Of a stretch of 55,758 nucleotides of DNA, positions 24,753-42,024 are shown one piece after another. The stretch lies in assembly GCA_017625725.1 (NCBI GenBank), contig JAGAKH010000010.1, forward strand, positions 1-55,758, given 5' to 3'. Made by a program: the position numbers and the translations under genes. Below the pieces are notes generated by a model. That model was not told the DNA's origin. It was given only the letters and a program-made list of their open reading frames with translations, and did not search any database. Origin of the DNA: Bacteroidales bacterium. GTDB lineage: Bacteria; Bacteroidota; Bacteroidia; Bacteroidales; UBA932. Position 1 is the first letter of the stretch. The number at the start of each line of letters is the position of its first letter.

Positions 24753-24768
24753 CGTTAAGGCGTCATAT

Positions 24769-26556
24769 ATGTCATTCAATCTGTTTTTAACGGCAGGTTT
24801 GCTCATTGCAAGCCTTGCAGACTCTCTGGATGCAGTCGTCATCTCAGCTGAAAAGGGAGTCACAGTTTCACAACAGGACACAGTCCTGTCTGAAAATTCA
24901 ATTTCACTTTCTGAAGCTCTTCTCAGAAACACATCTCTGCAAGTCAGCGACAACGGAGGTCCCGGAGGACTGAAGACCGTCAGTCTCAGAGGCTTGGGCA
25001 GTGCCCATACCGCGATTTACATAGACGGAATTAGGGCCGGAAATGTACAGTCCGGGCAGAACGACCTGGGGATGTTCGACATTTCATCCTCCTGCATTGT
25101 GGTGGATTACGCACAGAACAGCATAAGCATCAACACTGCAAGACCACACTTTGACAGACTCCCTGTCACAGGGAACTTCAACATCAGCGGAGGTTCGTTC
25201 GGCACATGGCTGCCCACTGCAAGACTGGACTTCAGACTATCAGAAAATGTTTCGCTTTCCGCCAACGCATCCGGAGTATTCAGCAAGGGCGATTTTCCTT
25301 ACGGAGCCGGACTGAAAAGAACAAATAACGATCTGAATCAGATCCGCTCCGGCCTCGACCTTTTCGGATTGATGAATCTTGGAGACTACCATGTAAAAGC
25401 CTGTTTCAATGGATCCAGACGCGGAACTCCCGGATCTACGGCATGGCCGTCCGATGACAGGCAGGAGGACAGGAATGTCTTCGTCCAAGGATCGGTCAAG
25501 ATGAGATTTTCAGACCTTTACACACTGAGAACCAGTGCCAAAGGTTCTGTCGACAACATCTTCTACACCAGCTCATGGGGAGACAGCAGATACAGGCAGA
25601 CTGAAGTCCAGCTCAACACAGTCCACGACTTCAAGATCAAGGACTGGTGGAGACTGTCGCTCGCTGCAGACACTCACTGGGACGGACTTAACTCCACATA
25701 TTATGAAATGAACCGAGTCTCTATCCTTACAGCTCTGGCCTCCGCTTTCAAGGTCAGAAGATTCGCAGCAGATCTGGCCTTGGAATACAATCTTGCACTC
25801 GACAAGGGATATCAGCACAAAGACGCACTCTCCCCATCCATGAACCTGAGGTTCAACATCATGGAAGGTTTCGAGATATCAGCTCTCGGACGGAGGATGT
25901 ACCGTATACCGACATTCAACGAACTCTATTATACGGGATACGGCAATCCGGAGCTGAACCCGGAAGATGCATGGACATCAGGCATAGGAGCCTCATTCCA
26001 ACGCAAGATATCGAAACGATGGAGGATAAATGCAGATCTGAACGGTTTCTACACATACCTCAGGAACAAGATCACATCTGTACCGACAGAAGCGGATCCG
26101 AACATCTGGATGCCGGTGAACATCGGACGTGTCAGGTCCACCGGATTTGATTCCAAAGCCGCTGTCGGATACCGGCATAAAGACTTCAGGGCAGGCCTCA
26201 CTGCAGCATACTCATTCCTTTCATCTGTAGACTGTACGGAGGGAAGCAGCACTTTCGGTCAGCAGGTTCCGTTCACCACAAGGCACAGCGTTTCCTTAGC
26301 CGGAGACCTTATATGGAAAGGATGGGGACTGAACGCTATCTTCAATTCAAGAAGTGGATACACCGGATCATCCGGTCCTCTTCCCGACTGGAGCACGCTC
26401 GACCTGACGATAAGCAAGGAAATAAATACAGACATATACGGCAGTCTGAAACTGAAATTCCAGATAAGGAACATTACAGACTGCCGATACGAACTTGTCA
26501 GCGGCTATCCGATGCCAGGCCGCAGCATTATGGGTGGCATTGAATATAAATTCTAG
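24769..26556 (+). CDS. BtuB-like TonB-dependent cobalamin receptor
   Basis: A 595-residue outer-membrane receptor. The ATG at 24769 gives a signal peptide (MSFNLFLTAGLLIASLADSL); the longer frame from 24679 would run through the riboswitch. The plug domain shows LSENSISLSEALLRNTSLQV, GGPGGLKTVSLRGLGSAHTA and IYIDGIRAGNVQSGQNDLGM, close to vitamin B12 receptors. The barrel includes LGRRMYRIPTFNELYYTGYG (with NPEL after) and ends PMPGRSIMGGIEYKF. The riboswitch upstream identifies cobalamin or another corrinoid as substrate. It is slightly short for the family but complete at both ends. A BtuC-like gene follows after 3 bases. Confidence 0.92.
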   Translation: MSFNLFLTAGLLIASLADSLDAVVISAEKGVTVSQQDTVLSENSISLSEALLRNTSLQVSDNGGPGGLKTVSLRGLGSAHTAIYIDGIRAGNVQSGQNDLGMFDISSSCIVVDYAQNSISINTARPHFDRLPVTGNFNISGGSFGTWLPTARLDFRLSENVSLSANASGVFSKGDFPYGAGLKRTNNDLNQIRSGLDLFGLMNLGDYHVKACFNGSRRGTPGSTAWPSDDRQEDRNVFVQGSVKMRFSDLYTLRTSAKGSVDNIFYTSSWGDSRYRQTEVQLNTVHDFKIKDWWRLSLAADTHWDGLNSTYYEMNRVSILTALASAFKVRRFAADLALEYNLALDKGYQHKDALSPSMNLRFNIMEGFEISALGRRMYRIPTFNELYYTGYGNPELNPEDAWTSGIGASFQRKISKRWRINADLNGFYTYLRNKITSVPTEADPNIWMPVNIGRVRSTGFDSKAAVGYRHKDFRAGLTAAYSFLSSVDCTEGSSTFGQQVPFTTRHSVSLAGDLIWKGWGLNAIFNSRSGYTGSSGPLPDWSTLDLTISKEINTDIYGSLKLKFQIRNITDCRYELVSGYPMPGRSIMGGIEYKF

Positions 26557-26559
26557 AAT

Positions 26560-27345
26560 ATGTTGTTGAGCCTTCTATATGTACTCATATCCGGAATTGC
26601 CCTGCCGGTAGGGGGCATCCAGATGCAATATCTATGGAGAAACCAGTTGGGAGATGTCTATAGCCTGGGACTAGGAAGTGCCGCATGTCTGGGAGCAGCG
26701 GCAGCCACCATGTCTGGTCTTTGTTCCTTGACAATCGGAAGTTTTATCTGTACCCTGATCTGTACAATAATCTGCTTCTTCGTAACCTTGAGGGTAAGCA
26801 CACAGAACCTCATCACCTTCGGAATCCTGTTCGGGACATTCATCGGGTCATTGGGTACGATAGTCGTGACAAATGCTCCAAACGGGGAACTGCTGAAGCA
26901 GTATTACCTTTGGGGAGCCGCCAATTTCAATCTTGAAGGTGTCACCACTGGTGACATATGCTTTTCTCTTGCCCTCTTCATTGCAGGGATCAGTGTCGCA
27001 TTACTTGCTTCCAGGCAGTTGACAAGGCATTTCAAAGGAGAAACGGAACTGTCAAGACTTCACAAGGCATTGCTGCTGCTTGCCATAATGTGTCTTGTAA
27101 CCAGTTCCGTCTCCATCTGCGGACCGATAGGTTTCGTATCACTTGGGGTACCGAATCTGAGCCGCACAATCTGCAAAAGTTCTGATATCCGCAAGCACTA
27201 TCTGATTTCAAGTGCCATGGGAGTCGGTCTTCTCCTTACGACCTATCTTGTGGTCACTTACGTAAATTTCGGGATATATCTCCCGATCAGTGCAACAATG
27301 GCTATCATCGCCCTCCCGCTGATGCTGATTCTGTTTCTGCGTTAA
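26560..27345 (+). CDS. BtuC/FecCD-like permease, N-terminally short
   Basis: A 261-residue membrane protein of the FecCD/BtuC family, whose members usually have about 330 residues and ten helices. The matching region starts at once: VGGIQMQYLWRNQLGDVYSL corresponds to the family's G-x-x-x-Q-x-x-x-RNPLADPYLLG block. GAANFNLEGVTTGD and SICGPIGFVSLGVPNLSR (family: G-x-IGFVGLxxPHxxR) follow. The first helices and the usual R-LPR motif are missing, and the histidine of PH-x-x-R is Asn here. No binding protein or ATPase gene is adjacent. It shares the riboswitch transcript with the receptor, so a corrinoid-related role is likely, but function as a normal ABC permease is doubtful. The last 4 bases overlap the convergent lipocalin gene. 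Confidence 0.78.
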   Translation: MLLSLLYVLISGIALPVGGIQMQYLWRNQLGDVYSLGLGSAACLGAAAATMSGLCSLTIGSFICTLICTIICFFVTLRVSTQNLITFGILFGTFIGSLGTIVVTNAPNGELLKQYYLWGAANFNLEGVTTGDICFSLALFIAGISVALLASRQLTRHFKGETELSRLHKALLLLAIMCLVTSSVSICGPIGFVSLGVPNLSRTICKSSDIRKHYLISSAMGVGLLLTTYLVVTYVNFGIYLPISATMAIIALPLMLILFLR

Positions 27346-27884
27346 TCGTCTTCCCATGCATCTATGTTACGGCTCTGATCCACCCAGATCAGCTTGGATG
27401 TGTCATAGCCACGTCTCTCAGCCTCGGCAAGCACCGCCTTTAAAAGGTCAGGATCAGCTACAGGCGTACGTGAAAGAATCCACAGATAGTTGTCGGACTT
27501 GCTTCCTACAAGTGAAATTGTGTAGTCCTGATCGACCATCATCACATTGTATTCAGAATAGAAGAAGAGAAAGAATGAGACTTTAAGGGCCCCTGGATTG
27601 CCTGATGGATCGAGGTATTTAGCCTTTCCTTCAGCAACTTCGAACTTGCCGTTTTTCCAACCGGTGTTCAGGACGAAGACCTTTCCGTCATCCTGAAGGA
27701 TGTACTGGGCCATGGTATTGTCCATACCCTTTTCAAAACTGTGATTGTAGCGTGCCACTTCATACCACTCGCCAAGATATCTTGACAGATCGAATCTGTC
27801 GACAGTGGAGTTGTCGAAATCCTTGCTGCACGCTGTTACAGGCAGGATGCTGGCGATTGCAATCGCATAAATCAGACTTTTCAT
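27342..27884 (-). CDS. Lipocalin (Blc-like) lipoprotein
   Basis: A 180-residue bacterial lipocalin. I start at ATG 27884, which gives a lipoprotein signal (MKSLIYAIAIASILPVTAC, Cys19); the upstream ATG adds 14 residues. The lipocalin signature is YLGEWYEVARYNHSFEKGM (about 35-53). The second is the LV/TD-type strand region YNVMMVDQDYTISLVGSKSD, and the third is YLWILSRTP. Blc-type lipocalins sit in the outer membrane and bind fatty acids or lysophospholipids, often under membrane stress. Length matches the family. It is convergent with the BtuC-like gene. Confidence 0.9.
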   Translation of the reverse strand: MKSLIYAIAIASILPVTACSKDFDNSTVDRFDLSRYLGEWYEVARYNHSFEKGMDNTMAQYILQDDGKVFVLNTGWKNGKFEVAEGKAKYLDPSGNPGALKVSFFLFFYSEYNVMMVDQDYTISLVGSKSDNYLWILSRTPVADPDLLKAVLAEAERRGYDTSKLIWVDQSRNIDAWEDD

Positions 27885-27971
27885 AACACTAAAGAACTTT
27901 AAAGAATTAAACACAAACGGCCACAATCCAAAAACCGTTCCCGTCCTTAAGTGCTGAAAAGGGATTATTAT

Positions 27972-29385: not shown

Positions 29386-30846
29386 TTATAATTCTACAAT
29401 GTCCAAGACTCCGTCACGCGTCATGGATATACGGAAATGATGATACTTCGTATTTCCGTCATGCTGGACCTGAAAGACAATATTGACATAATACAGTTTC
29501 TGCACTTTCAGGGACAGGAGATTGCCATCCGTATCCACCGAGTCGATAGGGACGACCGGATTATCCATCTTATGCGTAAATCGGTTGAGATGCAATCTCA
29601 TGATTTCATTGATTCCACGCATAGGATAGTCTGCATTTGCCGCAAGAGCCACATCATCGATCGTAACATGCTTGCGGTAGAGAAGAACCTTTTCTTCAAA
29701 GATTCTTGATTCATCCTCAACTGAAGAAGCCGCTTCACGCATAGCTTTCACCTCGGGAGGTGTCTTTGTCTCTGAAATGAAGTCGAAACCTTCCTTTATC
29801 TCACCGATACGATGCTTTCCGATGGTGATGCTGGCCTTCTTATCATAATATTTATTGCCTAACTTATGGGCAAAATAGTATCTCAAAAGATCCTTGATAC
29901 GGTCTTTAAGCATGTAGCTCACAACCAGGACTATGAAAAGCGGCCATGTGATGTTGCCGTAACGTACCTGAGTATGCCACGCAACAGCTGTCGCAAATAT
30001 CATGGCGATTCCGGCAGCAATGCTATAGTAGATCTGTTCGATGGCCACACCGTCCTTCTTCTTGTCAAGACGTATGTAAAGTTCACTTTCAATGAACTTC
30101 TTCAGCATTCCACGATGGAAGACCAGCTGACGGTCATGTTCAGGTTCGTTCCTGATAACTCCGTATTCCATCGACATCTTATACGCCCTTTCATCCTGGA
30201 TCAGTTCCATGAAGTCACTGCGGATCTTGCCGCATACCTCCGGGTTGAGGGAAGTATCGATATGGCGGATGAGCCTTATGGTACGCAGCTCCACTACATG
30301 GCTCATGAACTCGTCGCAGAGACGGAAATAACTGCGGGTCTTATCAGAAACCGTAGGTACATCTATTATCCTGTATAGTTCACGGAACTTCTTCAGGACA
30401 AGCCTTGCCCCTCCCACGAAATCCTCAACCAGATAACCGGCGGATTCAAGAGAGCGTGCTGCATGGATATGTGCTGCCTGATCGCGGAGCGAACTCTTGA
30501 ATATGGCGGCAAACATCTTCAGATGATACTCATAGGCATCAAGCTGTTCCTGTGTCGGATTATACACGACCTCTTCAAGGGCATGCTTCAAAGAAACCAG
30601 AGGCAAAGAACTTTCAAGTCCGATCTCGCGAAGCAGATAAACTGGGGTTATCAGGCGTACATTTGACTTTATATCGCGGTAGAACTGCTTCTTTCCGTAG
30701 TTTTCCGGATTGATATCCAGGCTGTTGGGAACGAACATCCAGGCGTTGACCGAGAAGTCATCGCGTTTTCCGTCTTCTGTGCAGTTGAATCCGAATTTGA
30801 ACTCTACTGAAAAATTGTCGTGTTTCTTTGCCTGTATCGATATCAT
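29386..30846 (-). CDS. Unrecognised membrane protein with central helix pair
   Basis: A 486-residue protein I do not recognise beyond similarity, from memory, to conserved hypothetical proteins in several phyla. It has no signal peptide. Residues 1-265 are soluble and mixed (MISIQAKKHDNFSVEFKFGF; the repeated R[TL]IRLIRHID region). Two hydrophobic segments at about 275-295 and 300-318 (IYYSIAAGIAMIFATAVAW and WPLFIVLVVSYML) form a membrane hairpin. The remaining 165 residues are soluble again (SITIGKHRIGEIKEGFDFIS). Both large parts should face the cytoplasm. It may be transcribed with the DUF4434 gene after it. Upstream lies the GC-rich repeat pair. Confidence 0.6.
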   Translation of the reverse strand: MISIQAKKHDNFSVEFKFGFNCTEDGKRDDFSVNAWMFVPNSLDINPENYGKKQFYRDIKSNVRLITPVYLLREIGLESSLPLVSLKHALEEVVYNPTQEQLDAYEYHLKMFAAIFKSSLRDQAAHIHAARSLESAGYLVEDFVGGARLVLKKFRELYRIIDVPTVSDKTRSYFRLCDEFMSHVVELRTIRLIRHIDTSLNPEVCGKIRSDFMELIQDERAYKMSMEYGVIRNEPEHDRQLVFHRGMLKKFIESELYIRLDKKKDGVAIEQIYYSIAAGIAMIFATAVAWHTQVRYGNITWPLFIVLVVSYMLKDRIKDLLRYYFAHKLGNKYYDKKASITIGKHRIGEIKEGFDFISETKTPPEVKAMREAASSVEDESRIFEEKVLLYRKHVTIDDVALAANADYPMRGINEIMRLHLNRFTHKMDNPVVPIDSVDTDGNLLSLKVQKLYYVNIVFQVQHDGNTKYHHFRISMTRDGVLDIVEL

Positions 30847-30980: not shown

Positions 30981-31065
30981 TAGGGGCCGGCCCGGGTAGG
31001 GCCGAAGTCCCCCTGAAGGGGGTGCAGGGGGTTAAGAAGCTTCATGCTCCTGGGCTAAAATAGCC
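30981..31065. repeat. GC-rich direct repeat, copy B, overlapping a gene end
   Basis: The second copy, 85 bases, 109 bases after the first. Its last 11 bases include the stop codon and the last codons of the DASS transporter gene (stop complement at 31055-31057). The internal palindrome CCCCCTGAAGGGGG is kept. Confidence 0.9.
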
Positions 31066-31071
31066 CAGGAG
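31047..31071. terminator. Perfect hairpin over the DASS gene stop codon
   Basis: CTCCTGGGCTA-AAA-TAGCCCAGGAG is an 11-bp perfect stem with a 3-base loop. It spans the end of repeat B and the last codons of the DASS gene. It lacks a T-run, so termination is uncertain; 3'-end protection is equally plausible. In copy A the second arm is destroyed. Confidence 0.55.
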
Positions 31072-32665
31072 TATATCCAAGCCAATGCAGCACAGTCTCA
31101 CCCCAAACAAGAATCATCACCCAGGAGATGAGCATCATGGTGATTCCGAACTTGAAGGTATCGCTCCAGCTGTAATGGTTTGTAGTATATAGCAGTGCAG
31201 CCGGCTTGCTGTTGAACGGCAGCACGTAGACATGTTCAATCAAAAGTGACACAGGGAACGAGAGACTGAGCGGCGGAAGGCCGAACTGCTGCTCGACACC
31301 TATGGCTATCGGAACGAATACCAAGGCCCTCATATTCTTTGACTGGAAGATAAGAGCACTGAAAAGCATAAGTCCGGTAAGGAGGATATAAAGAACTATA
31401 AACGGCGTATCCGCTGTGATTCCCAAAGCATCCATTCCTGCACCCACCATCACTGCAGGCAGGTCTGTTGCATTGAGGCCGGATCCGATGACATAAGCAC
31501 CGGCCGAGAAAATCATCAGATGCCATGGAATATCCACATCATTCCACTTGACGACTCCTATTCCAGGCATCAGTGCTATGATGGCTCCTATGAGCACGAC
31601 CACCTCGGCAGAAACGCCATGCCAGCTTTCTGTAACCCACATCACGAGCACTCCGACAAATATGGCAACAGACTTGAACTCTTCTTTTGTCATCTTGCCC
31701 ATTGCACTAAGTTCCTGACGAAGGCGTTCCATACCACCCTCGATCTGAGGCTTTCTTTCTTCCGGTTTGAGAGGGAATATCACCTTGACCCCGATGAACC
31801 ATCCTATGATCAGAAGGAGCATCGCAAGCGGGAAGGCGGCTGCCAGCCAGTCGGAATAAATCATTGTCACTGAGCTGTATGCACCTGTAAGCAGTGATAT
31901 TGCAAGAAGGTTGGCACCTGAGCCGGTCATGAAGGCACTGGCACCTATATTGATCTGGAACAAGTTCTGGAGCACGAGGTTGCGTCCGAAATTGTTGCGG
32001 TTGCCCTGGCTAGCTCCAAAGATGGCTGCCACTACCATAAATATAGGCAGAAGGATGGTGGCCTTCACTGTGGTAGCGGAAATGAACATCGACAGGACGA
32101 CATTGATGACAAGGAAGCTGAAGAAAATTCCGGAAGCACTCTTACCGAATTTGAGCACGAACCATAGGGCGAATCTCTTGGCCACCTTTGTCTTTACGAG
32201 CATGCTTGCAAGAACGAAGGAAAGGATGTTCAGCCACATCACAGGATGTCCGAGCTGGGCAAAGGCATCCTTCTGTGTGGTCACGCCGCATAGGATCACG
32301 GCCATAATCACCATAAGTGAAGTCAGATAGCTCTGCACAGCCTCAGTGATCCAAAGGACTATGGATGCACAGAAGATGGCAAGCATGGCATAGCATGCCC
32401 TGATGAATGCGGCCTCTCCTATTACATTGAGCCTTGCCTGAGCCTTGCTTGACAGACCGGAGAAATCCAGATTGTCAAACAACGGGATGTCTATCACCCA
32501 ATATATAAGGATGAATACAAGGGCGGCGATCGGTCCTCCCAGACGTGCCATCCACTTCTCGAAGCCGGATTTCTCCATCTTCGGAAGTTTCTCCACCTTA
32601 TAATTATTCATATCCAGCGGGTCAAAGACCTGCTCCTGTTCCAGTTCAGTGTTCTTGTCAGTCAT
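31055..32665 (-). CDS. DASS (SLC13) family anion:sodium symporter
   Basis: A 536-residue membrane protein with 11-12 helices of the divalent anion:sodium symporter family. Conserved features are an ITEAVQSYLTSLMVIMAVIL region, GHPVMWLNILSFVLASMLVK, the substrate/sodium loop SMFISATTVKATILLPIFMV (where an SNT or SAT motif is expected), and ASAFMTGSGANLLAISLLTG in the first half, with FSAGAYVIGSGLNATDLPAV in the second. Substrates in this family include dicarboxylates, citrate, sulfate and, in yeast relatives, phosphate. The first 40 residues are an extra charged tail. It ends the putative phosphate cluster and its stop codon lies in a repeat. Confidence 0.88.
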   Translation of the reverse strand: MTDKNTELEQEQVFDPLDMNNYKVEKLPKMEKSGFEKWMARLGGPIAALVFILIYWVIDIPLFDNLDFSGLSSKAQARLNVIGEAAFIRACYAMLAIFCASIVLWITEAVQSYLTSLMVIMAVILCGVTTQKDAFAQLGHPVMWLNILSFVLASMLVKTKVAKRFALWFVLKFGKSASGIFFSFLVINVVLSMFISATTVKATILLPIFMVVAAIFGASQGNRNNFGRNLVLQNLFQINIGASAFMTGSGANLLAISLLTGAYSSVTMIYSDWLAAAFPLAMLLLIIGWFIGVKVIFPLKPEERKPQIEGGMERLRQELSAMGKMTKEEFKSVAIFVGVLVMWVTESWHGVSAEVVVLIGAIIALMPGIGVVKWNDVDIPWHLMIFSAGAYVIGSGLNATDLPAVMVGAGMDALGITADTPFIVLYILLTGLMLFSALIFQSKNMRALVFVPIAIGVEQQFGLPPLSLSFPVSLLIEHVYVLPFNSKPAALLYTTNHYSWSDTFKFGITMMLISWVMILVWGETVLHWLGYTPGLF

Positions 32666-32743: not shown

Positions 32744-33217
32744 TTATTTTGCCCAATTCTTATATGGGTTCTTCATAAGCATAGAGTTGTAGTACTTCAC
32801 ATCTCCGGTAACCTCCTCTCCGAGCCACTCTGGCTTAGCAAAAGCCTCGTCCTCAGAAGAAAGCTCGACTTCAGCCACTGTAAGACCTTCGTTGTCACCG
32901 TAGAATTCGTCCACCTCGTAAGTATGCTCGCCAGCCTCCACAAGATAGCGTGTCTTGTCGATCACTCCTGGCTCACATATCTTGAGGAGTTCCTGCACTT
33001 CTGCTACAGGAATCTCCTTCTCCCACTCGAAACGGCTTGCACCGCTCTCAGAGCCGATACCCTTGATGGTGATGAATCCCTTCTCACCCTTTACACGCAC
33101 ACGTACTGTGCGCTCAGGAACTGAGCTGAGATAACCCTGAGTGATACGGGTCGCCTTCTTTGCAAACGGCTTGAAGTCGCCTGCAACCAAGAATTTTCTT
33201 TCGATTTCCTGTGCCAT
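32744..33217 (-). CDS. CYTH domain protein (triphosphate tunnel enzyme)
   Basis: A 157-residue single-domain CYTH protein. The signature ExExK-type start is present as MAQEIERKFLV (Glu4, Glu6, Lys8 by this count), then KATRITQGYLSS, RTVRVRVKGEKGFITIKG, EWEKEIP, TRYLVEAGEHTYEVDEFYGD and LTVAEVELSSEDEAF, which supply the ring of acidic and basic residues lining the tunnel. Bacterial CYTH proteins of this size typically hydrolyse tripolyphosphate or a nucleoside triphosphate. It is cytoplasmic. The gene begins 2 bases after the stop of a second, larger CYTH-like gene. Confidence 0.9.
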   Translation of the reverse strand: MAQEIERKFLVAGDFKPFAKKATRITQGYLSSVPERTVRVRVKGEKGFITIKGIGSESGASRFEWEKEIPVAEVQELLKICEPGVIDKTRYLVEAGEHTYEVDEFYGDNEGLTVAEVELSSEDEAFAKPEWLGEEVTGDVKYYNSMLMKNPYKNWAK

Positions 33218-33219
33218 GA

Positions 33220-33858
33220 TTACTCGTTTGCAAGTGGTTTGTCGGACATTCCGATGACACGCTTGATAGCCTGAAGATAATTGATATTCTCAACACCCTC
33301 GAGACCACAGTCCGCGATTGTCTTCTTGATGTCCTCGATTTCAGTAGACTCAGAGTTGATGGTAACCACCTTCGCTCCATTGATAAGAACGTTTCCAACC
33401 TCGCAGATGGTGTCGTTTACCATATAGCCGAAACGCTGCTTGTGCACGCGTACAGCCGCAAGATCAGGATTGGTCTTAACCATAGCGATGAACTCGTCGT
33501 AGGTGTACTCATCCTTGTCAAGTGCCGGCATCTCAACCATGAATGCAGGGAAAACCTCGTTCTCAAGCACTGCACGAGAGATAGGGAACTCGCCCTTCAT
33601 GAGAGGATTCCACTGCTCGAGGCCGTCAACAGTCTGGACATAAGTCTTGATGTCCATCTTTCCATTGCGGATCTTGGTGTTGTTGATATCGTTCTTGCGT
33701 GAAATGATGTAGATTTCGTCGCTTTCACGCTCCCATACCTTTTCAGGTACAGGAACGGAAAGACGAGCCATTCTCTTGTGTGCCTCACAGAAGCACTGTC
33801 CGAAAGAGCGGAACTCGAAACGTGGCTTCGAGATCTCGCCAATCTTCAATTCTGCCAT
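33220..33858 (-). CDS. Probable divergent CYTH-fold protein
   Basis: A 212-residue soluble protein with no assigned family. Its pattern parallels a CYTH tunnel: an early FEFRSFGQCF strand in place of ExExK, SDEIYIISRKNDINNTKIRN followed by GKMDIKTYVQ (basic strand pairs), then VRVHKQRFGYMVNDTICEVG and KVVTINSESTEIEDIKKTI, which mirror the R-x-x-KxR...E-x-D and the final V-x-x-E-[SL] strands. The gene is 2 bases before a clear CYTH gene, supporting a partner or duplicated fold. The catalytic ExExK glutamates are not obvious, so it may be a non-enzymatic partner or use another substrate. Confidence 0.55.
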   Translation of the reverse strand: MAELKIGEISKPRFEFRSFGQCFCEAHKRMARLSVPVPEKVWERESDEIYIISRKNDINNTKIRNGKMDIKTYVQTVDGLEQWNPLMKGEFPISRAVLENEVFPAFMVEMPALDKDEYTYDEFIAMVKTNPDLAAVRVHKQRFGYMVNDTICEVGNVLINGAKVVTINSESTEIEDIKKTIADCGLEGVENINYLQAIKRVIGMSDKPLANE

Positions 33859-33883
33859 AGTATATTGACTATCTTAGCTTTAA

Positions 33884-34504
33884 TTATTTCTTAGGCTCCT
33901 GCTCGATTACAGCAACCTTTGCACCATTAGCAGCCTTCTTGGTTGGAGCAGCATATACGAACTCACCTGTTCCGTCTGGTACGCGTGAGAAAGAGCACTC
34001 CTCATTCTCTGGATATCCCTTAACCTGATTCCAGCCAGCACCCTCAGTTCCGCGAACGAATGAATCGAGAAGCTTATCCTTAGCATCATAAAGTTCGAGC
34101 TTCACATTCTTCTTTGGTGAAAGACCACCCTTGAACACATGCTCTTCAGTCTCATAAACATAGTCATTGTCACGAACGCCATCTTCGTTCTCATCGCAAA
34201 GATCTGAACTCTCGATAACAACATAACCCTTAGCAGCTATCTTGATGTTAGCAGTACCAGTCCATGTTGTGCTCTTTCCATCTGGCTTCTCTGAGTCATA
34301 TTTCACAACATATACTCCCTCAAGAGAAATTTCCCTGTCAGTAGTGTTGTAGAACTCGATGAACTTGTTCTGTCCATCAACTTCGTTAAGAACTACGCCT
34401 GTAGCATCATTGACATCACCGCTACCTTCGATGTTGTGGTCTGCTTTGTTACATGCAACAAGTGCAAATGCAGCAGCTGCTGCGAATACAAGAATCTTTT
34501 TCAT
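33884..34504 (-). CDS. Lamin-tail domain lipoprotein
   Basis: A 206-residue lipoprotein (ALVAC, Cys18). Residues about 35-175 match the lamin tail (LTD) beta-sandwich: TGVVLNEVDGQNKFIEFYNT with T after, ISLEGVYVVKYD, AAKGYVVIESSD and GWNQVKGYPENEECSFSRVP. LTD domains occur in surface and secreted nucleases and phosphatases of bacteria, where they seem to be binding modules. Here the domain stands alone. It is encoded between a phosphate-type porin and two CYTH-type genes, in the same direction, 25 bases before the second of these. The function is not known. Confidence 0.78.
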   Translation of the reverse strand: MKKILVFAAAAAFALVACNKADHNIEGSGDVNDATGVVLNEVDGQNKFIEFYNTTDREISLEGVYVVKYDSEKPDGKSTTWTGTANIKIAAKGYVVIESSDLCDENEDGVRDNDYVYETEEHVFKGGLSPKKNVKLELYDAKDKLLDSFVRGTEGAGWNQVKGYPENEECSFSRVPDGTGEFVYAAPTKKAANGAKVAVIEQEPKK

Positions 34505-34561
34505 AATTGTTTTGAATTTAAATAGTTAATATAAATATTGGATGTTGTTTTTTATTATCAT

Positions 34562-34586
34562 ATCCCTCGACTAAGCTCGGGATGAC
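34562..34586. repeat. Degenerate REP-like element
   Basis: ATCCCTCGACTAAGCTCGGG followed by ATGAC matches the layout of the element at 32684-32708 (ATCCCCGGTCAAGCCGGGGA and TGAC). It lies in the gap between the porin gene's stop and the lamin-tail gene. The stem is imperfect. Confidence 0.5.
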
Positions 34587-34593
34587 AGGGACA

Positions 34594-35982
34594 TTAGAAT
34601 GCAACCTGGAAACGACATGCTATCATATGATAATCGATACCGTTTCCTGAGCCACCATTCATGATATCTCCAGGATAGAGGGAAGGATTACCTGCTTTGT
34701 CATAACCGGTAAAGTACGCACCCTTGTCTTTACCCTTATGATCTCCCTTTCCATTTGCAAAGATATCATTGTCATTATACTGATAGTTTATGACAAACTT
34801 GATATTTTCAGTCACATGGAAATTCAAGCCAAGAGAGTAAGCATAGGCCGAACCACCCATATAATGATTAGAGATATTGAGGTCGCAGTATTCTATACGT
34901 GCACAAAGCTCGATATCACCCCACTCCTTTCCACGCTTTACACGGGTATACTTCGCTCCACCTGCATCATAGTTCTGGCTTCCTCCGAAAAGAAGATATC
35001 CTGCCTGAGCATACCATCCCCAAGCTGGATCAAGTTCTCCAAAGCTACTCTTTACCGGATCCAGAAATGCCTGACGAGCAATATATGCAGCCTCATAGCG
35101 GAGACCCTTCCAATGGCCGGCAATCTCAAATGTGTATGCAAGTTCGTGATCGAGCCCCTCGATTGCATCTGTATCAAGGAATTTCTTACGGTTGATTCCT
35201 GTGGTGTTACGAGTGCTGTATCTCACGACGTTATAACCTTCACCCGTAGAAAGCTTAGGATTTCTGTAAGAAACAGCTGCACCGATGTGAAGTGAAGCAT
35301 TCTTTGCCTTGTGAAGCGGACGATATACGAGCTTACCAGTATATGACAATCCTTCATTCAAGCCCAAGTCCTTATTTCCTGTCTCAAATGAATTATGTGC
35401 CTCTGTACCTTCAAGTTCAGGTCCGAAAACACCTGCAGAAGCCCAAAGATAAGGAAGGTCATACCTCACATTGATACCCATGTGACGTGATGGAGCAAGA
35501 TATGTAGCCATAGGACGCTCCATGAACTGAAGGTAACGTGAAGTGGTGTTTCTCTGAATAGAGAAATTCTCCTTGAAGTTACCGATCTTAAGCTGGAAGT
35601 GATCCAGACCGTTATACTCAACAAACGCATCCTTGATTTCAGGAGTACCGCTGGTCCAGTCAGTGTCAAGCTCACCGTACCAATTCTCATCGAGCTGAGC
35701 CTTAACGGCGAAACGTGTACGACGCATAGCCATACCATTACCGATCTGAGTAAGGTTCTTGTCATAGCCGAAGAAAACAGCAGCGTCACCCTGAACACGT
35801 ACGTCGAACCACATCTTGTAGTTCTGAGCCTTGTTCTGGAACACAAGGATACCGTCCTGAACTGTTGCGTCAATAGGATAGGAATTAACCTTCTGTCCGT
35901 ACTGGTTCACATCAGTCTCCTGAGCTGTAGCAGCGATTGACATCGAAAGTGCCAAAGCTGAAAGTAGAAATAACTTTTTCAT
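34594..35982 (-). CDS. OprO/OprP-like porin (phosphate-selective type)
   Basis: A 462-residue outer-membrane porin. I start at MKKLFLLSALALS (35982); a Met two codons upstream is possible. The signal peptide ends ATAQ. The body follows the phosphate-selective porin O/P pattern: MRRTRFAVKAQLDENWYGEL, DWTSGTPEIKDAFVEYNGLD, FQLKIGNFKENFSIQRNTTS, RYLQFMERPM and the late NIKFVINYQYNDND, ending MIACRFQVAF. In Pseudomonas, OprP and OprO bring in phosphate and pyrophosphate. Specificity in Bacteroidales members is not established. The gene lies 35 bases after the membrane regulator gene. Confidence 0.85.
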   Translation of the reverse strand: MKKLFLLSALALSMSIAATAQETDVNQYGQKVNSYPIDATVQDGILVFQNKAQNYKMWFDVRVQGDAAVFFGYDKNLTQIGNGMAMRRTRFAVKAQLDENWYGELDTDWTSGTPEIKDAFVEYNGLDHFQLKIGNFKENFSIQRNTTSRYLQFMERPMATYLAPSRHMGINVRYDLPYLWASAGVFGPELEGTEAHNSFETGNKDLGLNEGLSYTGKLVYRPLHKAKNASLHIGAAVSYRNPKLSTGEGYNVVRYSTRNTTGINRKKFLDTDAIEGLDHELAYTFEIAGHWKGLRYEAAYIARQAFLDPVKSSFGELDPAWGWYAQAGYLLFGGSQNYDAGGAKYTRVKRGKEWGDIELCARIEYCDLNISNHYMGGSAYAYSLGLNFHVTENIKFVINYQYNDNDIFANGKGDHKGKDKGAYFTGYDKAGNPSLYPGDIMNGGSGNGIDYHMIACRFQVAF

Positions 35983-36017
35983 TTCCAAAAGGTTTAAAGT
36001 TAATGTTTAGTTGTTGT

Positions 36018-37613
36018 TTATATTGATTTAATGAAATTCACAAGGTTGTCTCCCTTAGAAAGCCCCAGCTTCTGCCTCAGACGGTAACGGCTTATCTCCA
36101 CACTCTTAGGGGTTATATTCATCAGGGTCGCAATATATTTTGAAGAGAATCCGAGTCTGAGCAATGTGGCAAGACGCCTTTCCTGCTGTGTGAGTCCCGG
36201 GTGATTCTCAGCAAGTTTTGCATTGAAATCTTCATGTATAGACTCTGCCTGAGCGTAAAAATACTGAGAATCGACATCACGGTCATATGAGAGCCTCTGC
36301 TTCAGGGACGACCCCAGCTCGGCAATCAGACTATCCCTTTCCTTCTCGTCCGAAGTCTTGGCCAGTTGCCTGACCATGGCATCAAGCGATTCCAGATATT
36401 CTTTCTGCTCCACCATGCTCAAGGCAACATTCATTACTTCCTGCCTTTTCATTTCCACCGCATTGTGCAGAGCCTGATTCTCTGAAATGATGACCTTGAG
36501 TTCCATATCGTTGAGTGCCCTGCTGTTTTCATATATCTGTTGCTGCTGGGCATAGACTATACGCTCCGTGGCCTCACGCTGACGCTTCTGAGTCCTGACA
36601 TAAGCAGAAAACAGGATGAATGCCAGTACTATGATGGCTGAAGACATGACTGCAAAACCTATCATATTCCCGTCATCTGCAATTCCGGACATATACAGAA
36701 GCATATATGAAAGAAAGAAAGAGCAGACCGGAGTCAGAATCAGTGCTGCAAGCTCACGGGCATAGTACTCTTGTTCAACCAGATATGATTTCTGAGCCAG
36801 AGCTGCACCGGCTATGGCCGCCGTTACGACCGGACCGACGGCAACCGGAACCGGTACAATCAAGAAAACGACAGCCGCAGAAAGGCCGACAGACAGCATC
36901 GTATATACAGAGAAATCGGAATAATGACCGTTATCCTCAGCTGACTCCCACGAAAATGCATATAGCAGAACCATTACAACAAGTGTTACCACGAAGATGG
37001 CGGCCAGATCGATTCCGGAAGAAGAAATCATATCCGACGCTCCTGCAACAAAACCTCCCCAATTGACACCGACCGCAATTGAAGTCAGTAGAATCGTAAG
37101 GACTGTGGCCAACCTCATATAATAAGACAACCGTATCAGATGAATTCCGCTTGAAGCCAATGTATGCTTGAAAAACCTATAAATCAGATATGAAATCACA
37201 AATGCCGCACACAACGAAACTGAAACGGGAATGATATAATTCCATACAGGAGACAGTTCATGTCCGGAATTCAGGAGGAATGCAGCATAGGAACCAAGCA
37301 CCGCATAGACGACGGAACCTTTCAATGAGAAGAAGTTAAGGAAGAAGAGCACTATCAAAGATGACAACAGCAAGAGAATCACTGACTGGCAGTCTATTGA
37401 TATGTACTCGACATGGAAGGTTGCGGTTTCACGTGCAAAAGCCAGGCTTCGAAGCAGAATCGCTGACAGAGCGGCAGTATATGAAATAAAAATAAATGTC
37501 TTTCTTCTTAAGGCACACGCAGGGAGATACAGTTCCATGCATGATGAATACTCCCTGGTAAAGAACCAGAGAGATGCAACTGCAAGAAAAAGTATGAGAC
37601 AGAAATTGATCAC
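36018..37613 (-). CDS. PiT-like membrane domain fused to LuxR-type HTH
   Basis: A 531-residue protein in three parts. Residues 1-340 have about ten membrane segments arranged as two repeats like the PiT phosphate transporters: LLLLSSLIVLFFLNFFSLKG and FVISYLIYRFFKHT in the first, IVPVPVAVGPVVTAAIAGAA and LILTPVCSFFLSYMLLYM in the second. The PiT substrate motif (family GANDVAN) appears only as GVNWGGFVAG (182-191), with the Asp and second Asn lost. Residues 341-460 look like a coiled coil. Residues 467-531 are a LuxR-type helix-turn-helix: GLTQQERRLATLLRLGFSSK and TPKSVEISRYRLRQKLGLSK. This suggests a membrane phosphate sensor that binds DNA. The stop-start overlap with the DUF47 gene upstream (ATGA) argues for joint action. 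Confidence 0.72.
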   Translation of the reverse strand: MINFCLILFLAVASLWFFTREYSSCMELYLPACALRRKTFIFISYTAALSAILLRSLAFARETATFHVEYISIDCQSVILLLLSSLIVLFFLNFFSLKGSVVYAVLGSYAAFLLNSGHELSPVWNYIIPVSVSLCAAFVISYLIYRFFKHTLASSGIHLIRLSYYMRLATVLTILLTSIAVGVNWGGFVAGASDMISSSGIDLAAIFVVTLVVMVLLYAFSWESAEDNGHYSDFSVYTMLSVGLSAAVVFLIVPVPVAVGPVVTAAIAGAALAQKSYLVEQEYYARELAALILTPVCSFFLSYMLLYMSGIADDGNMIGFAVMSSAIIVLAFILFSAYVRTQKRQREATERIVYAQQQQIYENSRALNDMELKVIISENQALHNAVEMKRQEVMNVALSMVEQKEYLESLDAMVRQLAKTSDEKERDSLIAELGSSLKQRLSYDRDVDSQYFYAQAESIHEDFNAKLAENHPGLTQQERRLATLLRLGFSSKYIATLMNITPKSVEISRYRLRQKLGLSKGDNLVNFIKSI

Positions 37614-38257
37614 AATGTTCTACGTATCGCCATTACAGCCAGCTGGTCAGCCACATTTGCAGCAGCTTTCGACAGATTCTCTATATGCAATGAAAAGTAG
37701 CGGAGGTGGAACTTCTCACTGAGCTTGAGTGCTGTCATATTATGGAATACCTTTCTCTTGATGGTCTGAGAGTATCTCACAGCCTCCTTTTCATAAAAAT
37801 ACGACCTTGATATCTTGTCAGGGATTGTTTCCGGAGACTTGAAATATGCCTTTGCAGCAGGAATGACCGACTCGACCGAAAGTGCCGAAAACTCTGTAAG
37901 CTTCATGAATTCCTGATTCAATTCTGCAGGTATATATGGAGTCTCGATCTCAAACTGAAAGAGACTCTCGTAAAGGATGTCGGTAATATTCCTTGTCTTC
38001 TCCAGAAGTCTCATGATATCTCCCCTGGACCTGACCAGTGCAGTCTGAGTATACAGGGCATTTTCAATCTCCCTACGCAACATTTCTGTCTCCGCTTCAA
38101 GAGAAGATACTCTCTGAAGATTCTCGTTAAAGTCATTCTTATTGGAATACAGATAGTTACGCACTCCATCCTTGAACACGAGCACAGTCTTGTCCATCAG
38201 GTCAAAATAGCGGTCAATATTCTCTATAAGTTTCTTCGTCTTCTCTCTGCCGAACAT
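37610..38257 (-). CDS. DUF47 family PhoU-like protein
   Basis: A 215-residue all-helical protein of the DUF47 (TIGR00153) family, related to PhoU and usually encoded beside a PiT phosphate transporter. I start at ATG 38257 (MFGREKTKKLIENIDRYFDL), because the longer frame begins with TTG inside the -7 element. Family length is matched exactly. Visible pieces are RVSSLEAETEMLRREIENAL (E-x-x-D-x-x-x-R type helix), LVRSRGDIMRLLEKTRNITD and EKEAVRYSQTIKRKVF. DUF47 proteins are thought to control PiT transporters according to phosphate. Here the partner is a PiT-like regulator instead of a transporter. Confidence 0.88.
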   Translation of the reverse strand: MFGREKTKKLIENIDRYFDLMDKTVLVFKDGVRNYLYSNKNDFNENLQRVSSLEAETEMLRREIENALYTQTALVRSRGDIMRLLEKTRNITDILYESLFQFEIETPYIPAELNQEFMKLTEFSALSVESVIPAAKAYFKSPETIPDKISRSYFYEKEAVRYSQTIKRKVFHNMTALKLSEKFHLRYFSLHIENLSKAAANVADQLAVMAIRRTL

Positions 38258-38278
38258 CGGAAATACATTTATATATAG

Positions 38279-38286
38279 CAAAGATA
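38279..38286 (-). promoter_or_regulatory. -7 element (TATCTTTG, minus strand)
   Basis: The complement reads TATCTTTG, 21 bases before the chosen DUF47 start, giving a short leader. No TTTG is found at -33. It would head the phosphate-type cluster. Confidence 0.55.
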
Positions 38287-38377
38287 CAATTTATCTCATT
38301 GTAGAGTGCATTTTATATACAATAACAAAAAATCGTCATTTGCATATTTTAAGATATTTAACTGATATATAATAAAT

Positions 38378-38415
38378 TATACGTGCTGTTCGTTACACAA
38401 CAAAAAGCACGTATA
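38378..38415. terminator. Hairpin downstream of rnr
   Basis: TATACGTGCT (38378-38387) and AGCACGTATA (38406-38415) form a perfect 10-bp stem around an 18-base loop, 20 bases after the RNase R stop. On the minus strand it is followed by ATTTATTATA, so termination would be weak. Confidence 0.45.
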
Positions 38416-38435
38416 GAGAAAATGTAGAGGTTCAA

Positions 38436-40778
38436 CTATTTCTTTGAGGAGTTCCGGCCAACCGGTTTACGCTTGGCGGAGCGTCGTTTCGAATCCTTTA
38501 TCGCCTTACGGACCTTCTCTTTTCTTGCCGCCTTGTTAATACCTACAGTGATATTGTCAAACGTTCCGTCCTCACCCTTGAGGAAGGAAGATCCACGACC
38601 CTGCTCGTAATCGATCCTGTCATATATACGGTCTTCCAGGCCGGACTCTATAAGTTCATAATCAAGAAGTTTCTGTTCCAGATTGGTCTTCTTTACACGT
38701 ATACGGACCGGATCACCGAGATTATAGACGATTCCTGTACGTCGGCCTACCAGCCTGTAATGCTCGGCATCGAACTCAAAGAAGTCACTTTTTATATCCC
38801 TGAGTGGGACCATACCTTCGATCTTTGTCGGTTCCACCTCCACGTACATACCCCATTCCGTCAGACCCGAGACATTTCCTCCGAAGACAAAGCCAACCTT
38901 GTCTTCCATGTATTCCACAAGTTTGTACTTGATGCTCGCCCTTTCGGCCTCAGCCGCAACAATTTCACGCTCTGATGCATGTCTGCACAGCTTTTCATAG
39001 GTTTCAGCCTTAGCGGACTCCCCTCCCTGAAGATAATGAGCAAGCAGGCGGTGGACCATCATGTCAGGATAACGTCTGATCGGAGACGTGAAGTGAGTGT
39101 AATATTTGAATGCCAGGCCATAATGGCCGAGATTCTCGATGTCGTATCTGGCCTTGGCCATGGTCCTGAGAGAGAGAAGCTCGATGGCATTGTACTCAGG
39201 TGTGTCTTTAGCTGCAGCAAAAAGGGAATTGAGTTCTTTGGAAATCTCTTTTCCATTGTTTGTAGGTCCAAGCCTATAGCCGAAGTTGCCTATGAAATTA
39301 CGCAGATTCTCGAGTTTTTCCTGATTCGGTTCGTCATGAACTCGATATACAAAAGTCCTGGCCGCCTTGCGTGCCTTGGAGGGCTTTTCCTCCATGCCCT
39401 TGCAGCCTGTAGCCACGAATTCAGCAACAGCCCTGTTAGCAAGAAGCATGAATTCCTCAATCAGCCAGTTGGCTTCCTTGGACACTTTCTGATAGACATC
39501 GACCGGTTTTCCCTTCTCATCGACAACTACCTTCATTTCCGGACGTTCAAAGCTGATGGCACCTGCTGCAAATCTCTTCTTGCGAAGCTTGGAAGCAAGT
39601 TTATGGAGGACAAGTACAGCCTGCCTGATCTTAACCGGCACATCTTCTGGAATCTTTTCCTCCTCAGATTCTATAATTGCCTGAGCCTGATCATAATTGA
39701 ATCTGAAATCCGAATATATTACAGTCTTTCCGAACCATCTGTTCTGAATCTTGCCGAGAGGGGTAAGTTCAAACACCGCGGAAAAAGTCAGTTTTTCCTC
39801 ATTAGGACGAAGAGAGCATAGCTTGTTACACAGTTTCTCCGGCAACATAGGCACGGTGCGGTCTACAAGATAGACGGAAGTACCTCTTCGAAGAGCCTCT
39901 TCATCAACCTCTGAACCTGGTCTGACATAATGAGTTACATCAGCGATATGAACTCCGACTTCATAATTTCCGTTTTCAAGTTCCCGGAAAGACAAGGCAT
40001 CGTCAAAATCCTTTGCATCGGCAGGATCGATAGTGAAGGTCAGTACGTCACGGAAATCCTTCCTTCCTTCAAGATCCTTAGGAGTGATTTCCTCTGAAAT
40101 GGAATCCGCCGCATCCTCGACCTGTGATTCGAAACGATAAGGCAGAGCATATTCGGCCAGGATGGCATGCATCTCCGTATCGTTCTCGCCCGGCTCTCCG
40201 AGCACATCCACTATATGTCCGGTCGGAGTGGACTCGGAACGCGGCCAGTCATCGACAACGGCAGCGACCTTCATCCCGCTACGGACAGTCATATCTGTCT
40301 TATTGACAGAATAGATTCCGTCCTCAAGAGGCTTCAGCCATCCTGTCTCATCCTTAGGCTCGGCCATAGACTGTGCCTTGACATTATGTCGGCGGAATCT
40401 CACCTTATCGGGCTCAGTGAAAGGAATCGTTATATCATATGGCATAAAACGGCTCTGCATAAGCACCCATGCGTTATTCCCTACAATATGAAGGACGCCG
40501 ATGAATGGCCTTGGCGAACGTTGGATGATCTCAACGACTTCACCTTCACGCCTCTGACGGTCGGTCTTTTCCCTTGTGACAGTCACTCTTACCGTGTCAC
40601 CGTTCAATGCCCCTCTAGTCTTCGACGCCTTGACAAATACATCATCCTCTTCACCCTCGACAATGACAAAGGCAAAACCTTCTCTTGTCATCTGGACCTT
40701 ACCTGTAACCTGAGGAAAAACCTTCTTCTCCTTCCTTCCTCTTCCTTTCATTCCTCGCGAATTCTTCTTTCTTGCCAT
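38436..40778 (-). CDS. rnr: Ribonuclease R
   Basis: A 780-residue 3'-5' exoribonuclease. In order: a basic N-terminus (ARKKNSRGMKGRGRKEKK), cold-shock/OB domains (GKVQMTREGFAFVIVEGEED), the RNB catalytic domain with the metal-binding TIDPADAKDFDDALSFRELE (the D-x-x-x-x-x-D-D-D set) and VGVHIADVTHYVRPGSEVDE, then HFTSPIRRYPDMMVHRLLAH, an S1 domain (GFVFGGNVSGLTEWGMYVEV) and a lysine- and arginine-rich tail. It degrades structured RNA and takes part in RNA quality control. It is a single gene, divergent from the RND efflux operon with a 130-base gap. Confidence 0.96.
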   Translation of the reverse strand: MARKKNSRGMKGRGRKEKKVFPQVTGKVQMTREGFAFVIVEGEEDDVFVKASKTRGALNGDTVRVTVTREKTDRQRREGEVVEIIQRSPRPFIGVLHIVGNNAWVLMQSRFMPYDITIPFTEPDKVRFRRHNVKAQSMAEPKDETGWLKPLEDGIYSVNKTDMTVRSGMKVAAVVDDWPRSESTPTGHIVDVLGEPGENDTEMHAILAEYALPYRFESQVEDAADSISEEITPKDLEGRKDFRDVLTFTIDPADAKDFDDALSFRELENGNYEVGVHIADVTHYVRPGSEVDEEALRRGTSVYLVDRTVPMLPEKLCNKLCSLRPNEEKLTFSAVFELTPLGKIQNRWFGKTVIYSDFRFNYDQAQAIIESEEEKIPEDVPVKIRQAVLVLHKLASKLRKKRFAAGAISFERPEMKVVVDEKGKPVDVYQKVSKEANWLIEEFMLLANRAVAEFVATGCKGMEEKPSKARKAARTFVYRVHDEPNQEKLENLRNFIGNFGYRLGPTNNGKEISKELNSLFAAAKDTPEYNAIELLSLRTMAKARYDIENLGHYGLAFKYYTHFTSPIRRYPDMMVHRLLAHYLQGGESAKAETYEKLCRHASEREIVAAEAERASIKYKLVEYMEDKVGFVFGGNVSGLTEWGMYVEVEPTKIEGMVPLRDIKSDFFEFDAEHYRLVGRRTGIVYNLGDPVRIRVKKTNLEQKLLDYELIESGLEDRIYDRIDYEQGRGSSFLKGEDGTFDNITVGINKAARKEKVRKAIKDSKRRSAKRKPVGRNSSKK

Positions 40779-40801
40779 AAAACTGATATATTATTCTTTC
40801 A

Positions 40802-40809
40802 CAAATTTA
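40802..40809 (-). promoter_or_regulatory. -7 element (TAAATTTG, minus strand) of rnr
   Basis: The complement of CAAATTTA is TAAATTTG, 24 bases before the rnr ATG at 40778. No TTTG lies at a 19-base spacing. Confidence 0.5.
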
Positions 40810-40861
40810 GATAATATTATCAAAATCGAGCCAGATGTCTCACAAAAAGGAGGATTTTAGG

Positions 40862-40869
40862 TATCTTTG
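40862..40869 (+). promoter_or_regulatory. -7 element (TATCTTTG) of the RND operon
   Basis: TATCTTTG matches TAnnTTTG 39 bases before the ATG at 40909. No -33 TTTG is seen at the usual spacing. Confidence 0.55.
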
Positions 40870-40908
40870 CAGGTTGTTGAACTGTAAAACAAAACTAAGA
40901 AAAACGAT

Positions 40909-42024
40909 ATGAACAGAGCATTTATCCCCCTTCTAATGTTTGCCGGTCTGGCGTTTTCTTCCTGCAAAGAAGGAACAAAGACCGTAGCTAAAGAGGATTC
41001 CTACTATGAAATCCATGAGGTCGCACTCAGCGACAGAACCTTGACCACCGGATACTCTGCAGCCATAAGCGGAGTACAGACAGTTGAAATCCGCCCTCAG
41101 GTGAGCGGTATGATTACAGACATACTTATAGAAGAGGGTGAAAGCGTGCACAAGGGACAGGTTCTTTTCATCATCGACCAGACCCCATACAAGGCAGCAT
41201 ATGAAATAGCTGTGGCAAACGTAAAGAGTGCAGAGGCCTCGCTGTCAACAGCCCAGCTCGTATATGAAAGCAACAAAGACCTTTATGAGCAGGATGTCAT
41301 CTCGGAATTCGACCTGATGACGGCTCAGAATAACCTCACGGAAGCGGAGGCCAGACTGACCCTGTGCAAGGCGGAAGAGGTGAATGCAAGCAACAACCTG
41401 TCATACACCGAGGTCCGTTCTCCTGTAAACGGTGTCGCATCCATGATTCCATACCGCGTCGGAGCACTCGTCAGCAGCAGCATCACACAGCCTCTGGTGA
41501 CAGTTTCTGATGACAGCCGCGTATATGCATATTTTTCAATGGCAGAGAACCAGATGCTTGACATGGTGCAGCAGTACGGTTCCCTCAACAACGCAATCAG
41601 GCAGATGCCTGAAGTCGAACTCATCCTCAGCAACGGCCAGACCTACGAACACAAGGGAAAGATAAACGCTATAAGCGGAACAATCAGCGAAAGCACCGGT
41701 GCAGTCAGCATCAGGGCGGTATTCAACAACCGCAATCACCTTCTCCGTAACGGAGGAAGCGGTACAATCGTGATTCCTGTGACAATGAAGAACTGCATGG
41801 CGATTCCTCAGTCCGCAACTTTCGAGCTTCAGGACAGAGTGTTCGTCTACAAGGTCGTCGACGGAAAAGCATCAGCCACAGAGATTCAGGTTGCTCCTCA
41901 GAACAACGGTACTGAATATATCGTGACCAAAGGTCTTGAAATAGGAGACATCATCGTAGCAGAGGGAGCAGGCCTCCTGAAGGAAGGTACAGTCATCAAG
42001 ATTCGTGAGGAGGGAGAAGAATAA
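40909..42024 (+). CDS. RND efflux periplasmic adaptor (membrane fusion protein)
   Basis: A 371-residue lipoprotein (AFSSC, Cys19) of the AcrA/HlyD adaptor family. A first lipoyl half is SGVQTVEIRPQVSGMITDIL followed by GESVHKGQVLFIID; a helical hairpin of about 80 residues follows (AYEIAVANVKSAEASLSTAQ to LTEAEARLTLCKAEEV), then the second lipoyl half TEVRSPVNGVASMI and beta-barrel and membrane-proximal domains. It links the inner-membrane pump to the outer-membrane channel. The stop overlaps the pump gene start as TAATG. It is the first gene of a three-gene operon. Confidence 0.94.
   Translation: MNRAFIPLLMFAGLAFSSCKEGTKTVAKEDSYYEIHEVALSDRTLTTGYSAAISGVQTVEIRPQVSGMITDILIEEGESVHKGQVLFIIDQTPYKAAYEIAVANVKSAEASLSTAQLVYESNKDLYEQDVISEFDLMTAQNNLTEAEARLTLCKAEEVNASNNLSYTEVRSPVNGVASMIPYRVGALVSSSITQPLVTVSDDSRVYAYFSMAENQMLDMVQQYGSLNNAIRQMPEVELILSNGQTYEHKGKINAISGTISESTGAVSIRAVFNNRNHLLRNGGSGTIVIPVTMKNCMAIPQSATFELQDRVFVYKVVDGKASATEIQVAPQNNGTEYIVTKGLEIGDIIVAEGAGLLKEGTVIKIREEGEE

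Follow-up and report, generated by a model that had tools for sequence, protein, structure and literature searches.

How should a protein be understood that resembles a phosphate permease in its membrane part and a transcription factor at its C-terminus? The question is raised by a locus in a 55,758-bp stretch of DNA from Bacteroidales bacterium (GTDB lineage Bacteroidota; Bacteroidia; Bacteroidales; UBA932; assembly GCA_017625725.1, contig JAGAKH010000010.1, positions 1 to 55,758 of the forward strand), hereafter called the window. A preliminary description had proposed that a 531-residue protein encoded there joins a PiT-like membrane domain with a degenerate substrate motif to a LuxR-type helix-turn-helix (HTH), is paired with a DUF47 protein and acts as a one-piece phosphate sensor and transcription factor. 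The reading preferred here, which we regard as moderately probable, is that the 531-aa protein is a membrane-tethered PiT-HTH transcription factor which, with the DUF47 protein, would control its own operon of porin and anion-transporter genes through the sequence CTCTACA.

The features of the locus are shown in Table 1. The system is found at 36018..38257, where it had originally been placed, but it reaches beyond these limits, up to 38429 with the candidate operators and down to about 29386 with the conserved genes. The reported ATGA overlap of the fusion and DUF47 genes has to be corrected to GTGA (37610-37613), in which the GTG start of the fusion gene lies over the DUF47 stop. Upstream, the RNase R gene (38436-40778) is followed by a gap of 178 bp to ATG 38257, the likely DUF47 start, which was chosen by conservation; the reference for the promoter-like box is the Bacteroidetes -7 consensus. 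A CitMHS-like match accompanies the DASS-type symporter in the operon. The proteins encoded at 29386-30846 and 33220-33858 yielded no Pfam or NCBIfam match at E<=0.01, and an Rfam scan of positions 33000-41500 yielded no match. Elsewhere in the window (24679-27926), genes for a TonB-dependent receptor, a FecCD-type permease and a lipocalin lie side by side.

Table 1. Features of the fusion operon and its upstream region (positions in the window)
Feature	Positions	Strand	Basis or remark
Fusion gene, 531 aa: PiT-derived membrane domain, linker and LuxR-type HTH	36018..37613	-	GTG start
PiT-derived membrane domain, residues 1-340	36594..37613	-	profile comparison, PDB match, hydrophobic segments
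Worn first PiT motif FTREYSSCMELYLPA, residues 18-32; E21 in GAND Asp column	37518..37562	-	alignment
Worn second PiT motif GVNWGGFVAG, residues 182-191; N184 kept	37041..37070	-	alignment
Cytoplasmic linker, residues 341-470	36204..36593	-	
GerE/LuxR HTH, residues 474-520	36054..36194	-	Pfam
DUF47 (PhoU_div, PitR-like), 215 aa from ATG 38257	37610..38257	-	PF01865, conservation of start
Candidate operator CTCTACA, 20 bp before TAnnTTTG-like box	38300..38306	-	comparative 7-mer count
Second candidate operator CTCTACA	38423..38429	-	comparative 7-mer count
Promoter-like box TATCTTTG	38279..38286	-	sequence
Porin O/P family outer-membrane protein	34594..35988	-	PF07396; likely ATG 35982
Lipoprotein-like protein with lamin tail domain (LTD)	33884..34504	-	PF00932
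Conserved 212-aa protein, no Pfam match	33220..33858	-	conserved in loci
CYTH domain protein, 157 aa	32744..33217	-	PF01928
DASS-type anion symporter	31055..32665	-	PF00939
Conserved 486-aa protein, no Pfam match	29386..30846	-	conserved in loci

The strongly hydrophobic segments of the 531-aa protein lie within residues 1-341. In the Pfam scan PF01384 (PiT) did not match the window protein alone, so that homology is shown through relatives and profiles; it also had no match anywhere in the window genome (79.7% complete). When 199 genomes of the family were searched with the protein and genome contigs were scanned, 28 full-length homologues (L002-L020 and L031-L039) were obtained. Five of them (L016-L020, about 582 aa) are intact: all five match PF01384 over its full length (E 3.5e-54 to 8.3e-54), carry the motifs GANDAANIFGTAVGS and GANNIANVMG, and have a linker and HTH as in the window protein. 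Together with the window protein, the remaining 23 make up the degenerate set of 24 rows, 21 of which were in the alignment used for the PDB profile search and for the PF01384 and GerE scans; eight of these 21 match PF01384 singly at E<=0.01 (best 4.7e-11), the window protein not being among them.

Regarding the profile comparisons with hhalign (E-values are those of one-against-one comparisons), the degenerate membrane domain matched the intact one with a probability of 99.3% (E 8e-21) over 311 collinear columns, and the window protein with its eight closest relatives did so with 96.3% (E 1.8e-9), whereas the controls (reversed, shuffled, DASS and RND) gave at most 2.5%. Against standalone PiT proteins the whole degenerate set reached 65.7% and the nine closest rows 9.4%, and the intact fusions 98.9%; given the low scores of the degenerate rows, the link to PiT passes through the intact fusions. 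The best PDB match of the profile of 21 degenerate rows was 6l85, a phosphate transporter of T. maritima (E 1.5e-6). The intact relatives, this match and the profile-profile comparison that the preliminary description had proposed thus uphold its PiT-like membrane domain, and PiT descent of this domain is shown at the level of sequence. Many genomes of the family (G183:C7, G139:C26, G058:C10 and others) hold ORFs of about 750-800 aa with a partial PF01384 match at about positions 4-261, perhaps a different PiT-related subfamily.

The C-terminal HTH of the window protein scored above the Pfam cut-off for GerE/LuxR (E 8e-7, 29 bits versus 23.5), and the domain is present in all 21 degenerate rows scanned, in agreement with the domain assignment made initially. 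The DUF47 protein matched PF01865 (E 4.3e-10, 39.7 bits versus a cut-off of 24.4); its score against TIGR00153, 38.2, is below the stricter cut-off of 104.3. The preliminary description had suggested a survey of homologues for DUF47 and porin neighbours, and homologues lacking any link to DUF47 or phosphate genes were to speak against its reading; the DUF47 gene adjoins the fusion gene in 28 of the 28 full-length homologues. Neighbouring genes were surveyed in 30 loci (the window, L100-L119 and L031-L039; L100-L118 overlap L002-L020), several of which end at contig ends, and the porin was found in 30, the LTD protein in 28, the 212-aa protein in 24, the CYTH protein in 24 and the DASS symporter in 22. 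The porin present in all 30 is the one that had been noticed after the fusion gene (PF07396, E 1.6e-29).

One of these loci, L119 (G066), encodes a protein in which the HTH follows DUF47 directly, the membrane domain being absent; porin and LTD genes come next. This form, the DUF47 part of which contains unread bases, occurs in 1 of 26 genomes of its genus and appears to show that the membrane part is dispensable there. In L037 (4546-5328) and L038 (4424-5323) a gene of about 260-300 aa, forming one cluster, directly precedes DUF47; a member of the same cluster lies elsewhere near the operon in L107 (3504-4283). A second DUF47 gene of the window genome (L120, G000:C80, 2884-3537) has no adjoining PiT gene and lies next to glycosyltransferase-like genes. 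By eye the 212-aa neighbour had looked like another CYTH-like protein, but hhalign (1.5%) led to rejection of this idea.

A search with the membrane-domain profile against 344 genomes of the order gave 31 strong matches outside the family, of which 28 further loci were taken (left out were G313:C29, G382 and G387). Twenty of them encode DUF47 with a PiT-HTH fusion, seven a standalone PiT with DUF47, and one (L139) is cut before the HTH. The 20 fusions are spread over 14 other families and, by a strict pattern, 13 carry both transport motifs, five carry one and two carry none. In one of the 20, L125 (G272), the PiT-HTH gene has an in-frame stop, and related genomes carry intact copies. Among 296 genomes sampled from the phylum, ten related PiT loci were found, all ten with DUF47 and none with an HTH; the fusion thus occurs within the order alone in these samples.

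The DUF47 tree unites the degenerate operons, L119 among them, in a single clade of 25 rows (100/99). Intact members of the family group with the fusions of other families and not with this clade, so that an origin of the degenerate clade inside or outside the family would both fit. Three fusions (L135, L138 and L147) are interspersed with standalone PiTs, and the trees, which were rooted at the midpoint, contain long branches that the program flagged and leave out L125 and L139, are compatible with more than one number of HTH gains or losses. The relatives range from motif-bearing to worn-down forms such as the window protein, a series that suggests the conversion of a transporter into a gene regulator held in the membrane.

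The substrate motif had been called degenerate, and this description extends to the whole set: GANDxAN-type motifs are absent from all 24 degenerate rows, the window protein included, and the S-T rich loops are altered. The column of the GAND Asp is nevertheless acidic in 24 of 24 rows (14 E, 10 D; E21 in the window protein), as is column 233, and N184 of the second motif is kept in 23. Regarding the nine closest rows, identity was 42.0% in the membrane part, 78.1% in the linker and 94.1% in the HTH, and DUF47 was 82% identical in four close rows; in the five intact family members membrane part, linker and HTH were 84.2%, 78.4% and 89.2% identical. The dN/dS of the membrane part (only pairs with finite dS, some of them with dS near saturation) was 0.08-0.33 in seven degenerate pairs versus 0.03-0.06 in five intact pairs, and that of DUF47 was 0.006-0.06. 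In the two closest degenerate pairs the values for membrane part and C-terminus were 0.089 versus 0.053 and 0.115 versus 0.138, so the membrane part is not clearly the more relaxed of the two. Taken together, the lost motifs, the kept acidic columns and N184, and the dN/dS values indicate that the membrane domain of the window clade probably no longer functions as an ordinary permease, although its sequence is still under constraint. Since nearly all PiT motif residues are lost, phosphate binding in the degenerate clade would be weakened.

To seek a candidate operator, all 7-mers in the 200 bp preceding DUF47 were counted. The top 7-mer was CTCTACA, present in 34 of 51 fusion-type operons versus none of the eight others then scored, or in 36 of 51 if L037 and L038 are read before the extra gene that precedes DUF47. 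(The 51 operons include L139, with the HTH region cut by the locus end, L125, with its in-frame stop, and L119, which lacks the membrane part.) The wider form C[ACT]CTACA occurs in 28 of 30 operons of the family and in 19 of the 21 fusion-type operons outside it, a total of 47/51 that overstates independence because the operons are related; it is missing from L110, L114, L127 and L140. Single-base shuffles of this pattern average 1.6/30 and 0.9/21. Among the non-fusion operons of the order it was found in none of seven with standalone PiT and none of 21 with canonical DUF47-PiT (nine of the 30 canonical loci were left out of the count because their flanks are cut), and outside the order in one of ten DUF47-PiT operons. 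Of 51 spacings tallied, 29 come to a multiple of 11 bp give or take one base (about 14 expected), and in seven of the nine closest loci, those giving a TAnnTTTG-like box, the last site precedes this box by 20-21 or 30-31 bp. As the loci are related, this does no more than suggest helical phasing.

Within the window CTCTACA is not enriched (9 sites versus 6.9 expected; 28 of 100 shuffles reach 9), so the case for an operator rests on the comparison across operons. The tandem pattern CTCTACA-N4-CTCTACA gave six matches in 199 genomes, three of them before the fusion operon, versus 12 for the backwards control. Paired sites gave 38 matches in 20 genomes, nine of them before the fusion operon in seven genomes, versus 23 for the backwards control. 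A site-plus-promoter pattern matched in one of eight genomes, exactly before the fusion operon. No wider regulon was found with these patterns in the 199, 20 and 8 genomes, respectively, the 29 remaining paired matches being taken as a total. Tandem CTCTACA away from the fusion operon is seen in three genomes (L159, L160 and L162), the first two of which share a neighbouring frame of 547 aa.

Regarding other phosphate systems, PstC was above the cut-off in one of 21 fusion-type genomes (G029; G066 is included in the 21) and PhoU in none, versus both in two of five genomes without the fusion, in a small and uneven sample in which several genomes are incomplete. Encoded in the window genome is a protein of 567 aa whose end is weakly PhoU-like and which we take to resemble NptA. 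A CACTACA before this NptA-like gene lies in the neighbouring reading frame and was taken as chance.

Among membrane-bound one-component regulators, ToxR and CadC are single-pass proteins with a winged helix, in some cases with a co-encoded partner. The fusion is likewise a membrane protein with its own DNA-binding domain and a co-encoded partner, but its membrane domain is multi-pass and derived from a transporter, and its HTH is of LuxR type. With PiT transporters (PF01384; PDB 6l85) it shares a homologous membrane domain and, in many intact relatives, also the motifs GANDAAN/GANNIAN and the DUF47 neighbour; it differs by the added C-terminal linker and HTH and, in the window clade, by the absence of the motifs. 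In Staphylococcus aureus, according to PMC13170248, adjacent genes encode a DUF47 protein and a PiT-type protein as here, and PitR (DUF47) works as an accessory regulator with PitA in the PhoPR control of phosphate signalling; the PhoPR two-component system provides the output in that species, whereas here a DNA-binding domain is found within the PiT-derived protein. Ks-Amt5 is described in PMC5764959 as an ammonium transporter-histidine kinase whose transporter domain is a sensor that binds ammonium with inefficient translocation. The likeness to the fusion is one of layout, a transporter domain joined to an output domain; Ks-Amt5 has ammonium and a histidine-kinase output, the fusion a PiT domain and its own DNA-binding domain. 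Phosphate-responsive control in Bacteroidales is exemplified by PhoRB of Bacteroides fragilis, which according to PMC3547664 is a two-component system acting on pst, unlike the regulator proposed here. No described regulator with a PiT-HTH architecture was found in searches of open-licence literature, in line with the preliminary description, which knew of none.

How the membrane domain of the window clade is used can be read in more than one way. It may be an anchor only, with DUF47 sensing and handing its state to the HTH, an explanation that we consider possible though on the doubtful side: the lost motifs, the low identity of the membrane part beside a well-kept linker, HTH and DUF47, and the DUF47-HTH protein of L119 with the same porin behind it would fit an anchor, but purifying selection still acts on the membrane part, the acidic columns 21 and 233 and N184 are kept, and the L119 form is known from a single genome of its genus with a gap in its DUF47 part. 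Continued transport of phosphate or another ion by the window protein, the HTH adding feedback, is very unlikely; the acidic GAND column, the second-motif Asn, the purifying selection and the existence of intact-motif fusions would fit, yet GANDxAN is gone from every degenerate row, the S-T rich loops are altered, and dN/dS exceeds that of the intact relatives in most pairs.

Two further alternatives concern the signal and the sites. A regulator of the same kind might respond to another anion (sulfate, dicarboxylate or polyphosphate-related) and not to phosphate, which seems rather unlikely to us. The loss of the PiT substrate motifs and the DASS-type symporter and CitMHS-like match of the operon, of a family moving sulfate and dicarboxylates, point that way, but some DASS relatives move phosphate, and the PiT ancestry and the invariable DUF47 partner point to phosphate, to which DUF47/PitR is tied elsewhere (PMC13170248). 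It is unlikely that the CTCTACA sites belong to a different regulator and merely accompany the fusion operon: the link between HTH and sites comes from sequence comparison, and no clear link of the second operator base to the recognition helix emerged (the helix pattern failed in many rows), but the near-constant presence of C[ACT]CTACA in fusion-type operons and its absence from all 28 non-fusion operons of the order speak against this.

According to the preferred reading of a membrane-tethered regulator, a PiT phosphate permease would have been fused via a cytoplasmic linker to a LuxR-type HTH, giving a transcription factor held in the membrane whose working partner is the DUF47 (PitR-like) protein of the preceding gene. 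Its HTH would bind the repeated CTCTACA sites before the DUF47 gene and so control its own operon, which also holds the porin, the CYTH protein, the DASS anion symporter and the conserved proteins of unknown kind. The many relatives in the order that keep the PiT motifs may be transporter and regulator in one, whereas the PiT part of the window clade most likely does not transport and may act either as a sensor or as a dock holding DUF47 at the membrane. Fusion architecture and DUF47 partnership are firm as judged from gene order and domain matches, and control of the operon through CTCTACA is likely. We infer that this HTH binds CTCTACA, that phosphate or a related anion is the signal, that the worn PiT domain senses it with DUF47 as signalling partner, and that transport is lost in the window clade. 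That control is activating is a guess made from where the sites lie. A worn motif is no proof of sensing, and the worn PiT domain could be a membrane dock for DUF47. A broader proposal, held tentatively as somewhat short of probable, is that Bacteroidales possess order-wide, kinase-free phosphate transceptors made up of PiT, an HTH of its own and DUF47, of which the window clade would be a transport-dead sensor and of which intermediate stages survive.

The coupling of nutrient transport to gene expression is unsettled for phosphate in bacteria, and is so called in a 2026 study of PitR, which also names Bacteroidota among the taxa having genomes with neither PhoP nor PhoR identified (PMC13170248). 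With a permease-derived protein and an HTH on one chain, a DUF47 protein and a candidate operator, this question becomes testable with two genes and one promoter. New here, as a result of comparing upstream regions, is the association of C[ACT]CTACA with fusion-type operons. Because 20 of the 21 fusion-type genomes (several of them incomplete) have no PstC above the cut-off, the fusion could be a main phosphate regulator in these gut lineages. In whichever order its steps came, the living series of standalone permease, fusion with motifs, fusion without motifs and DUF47-HTH without permease documents how a transporter can turn into a regulator in nature.
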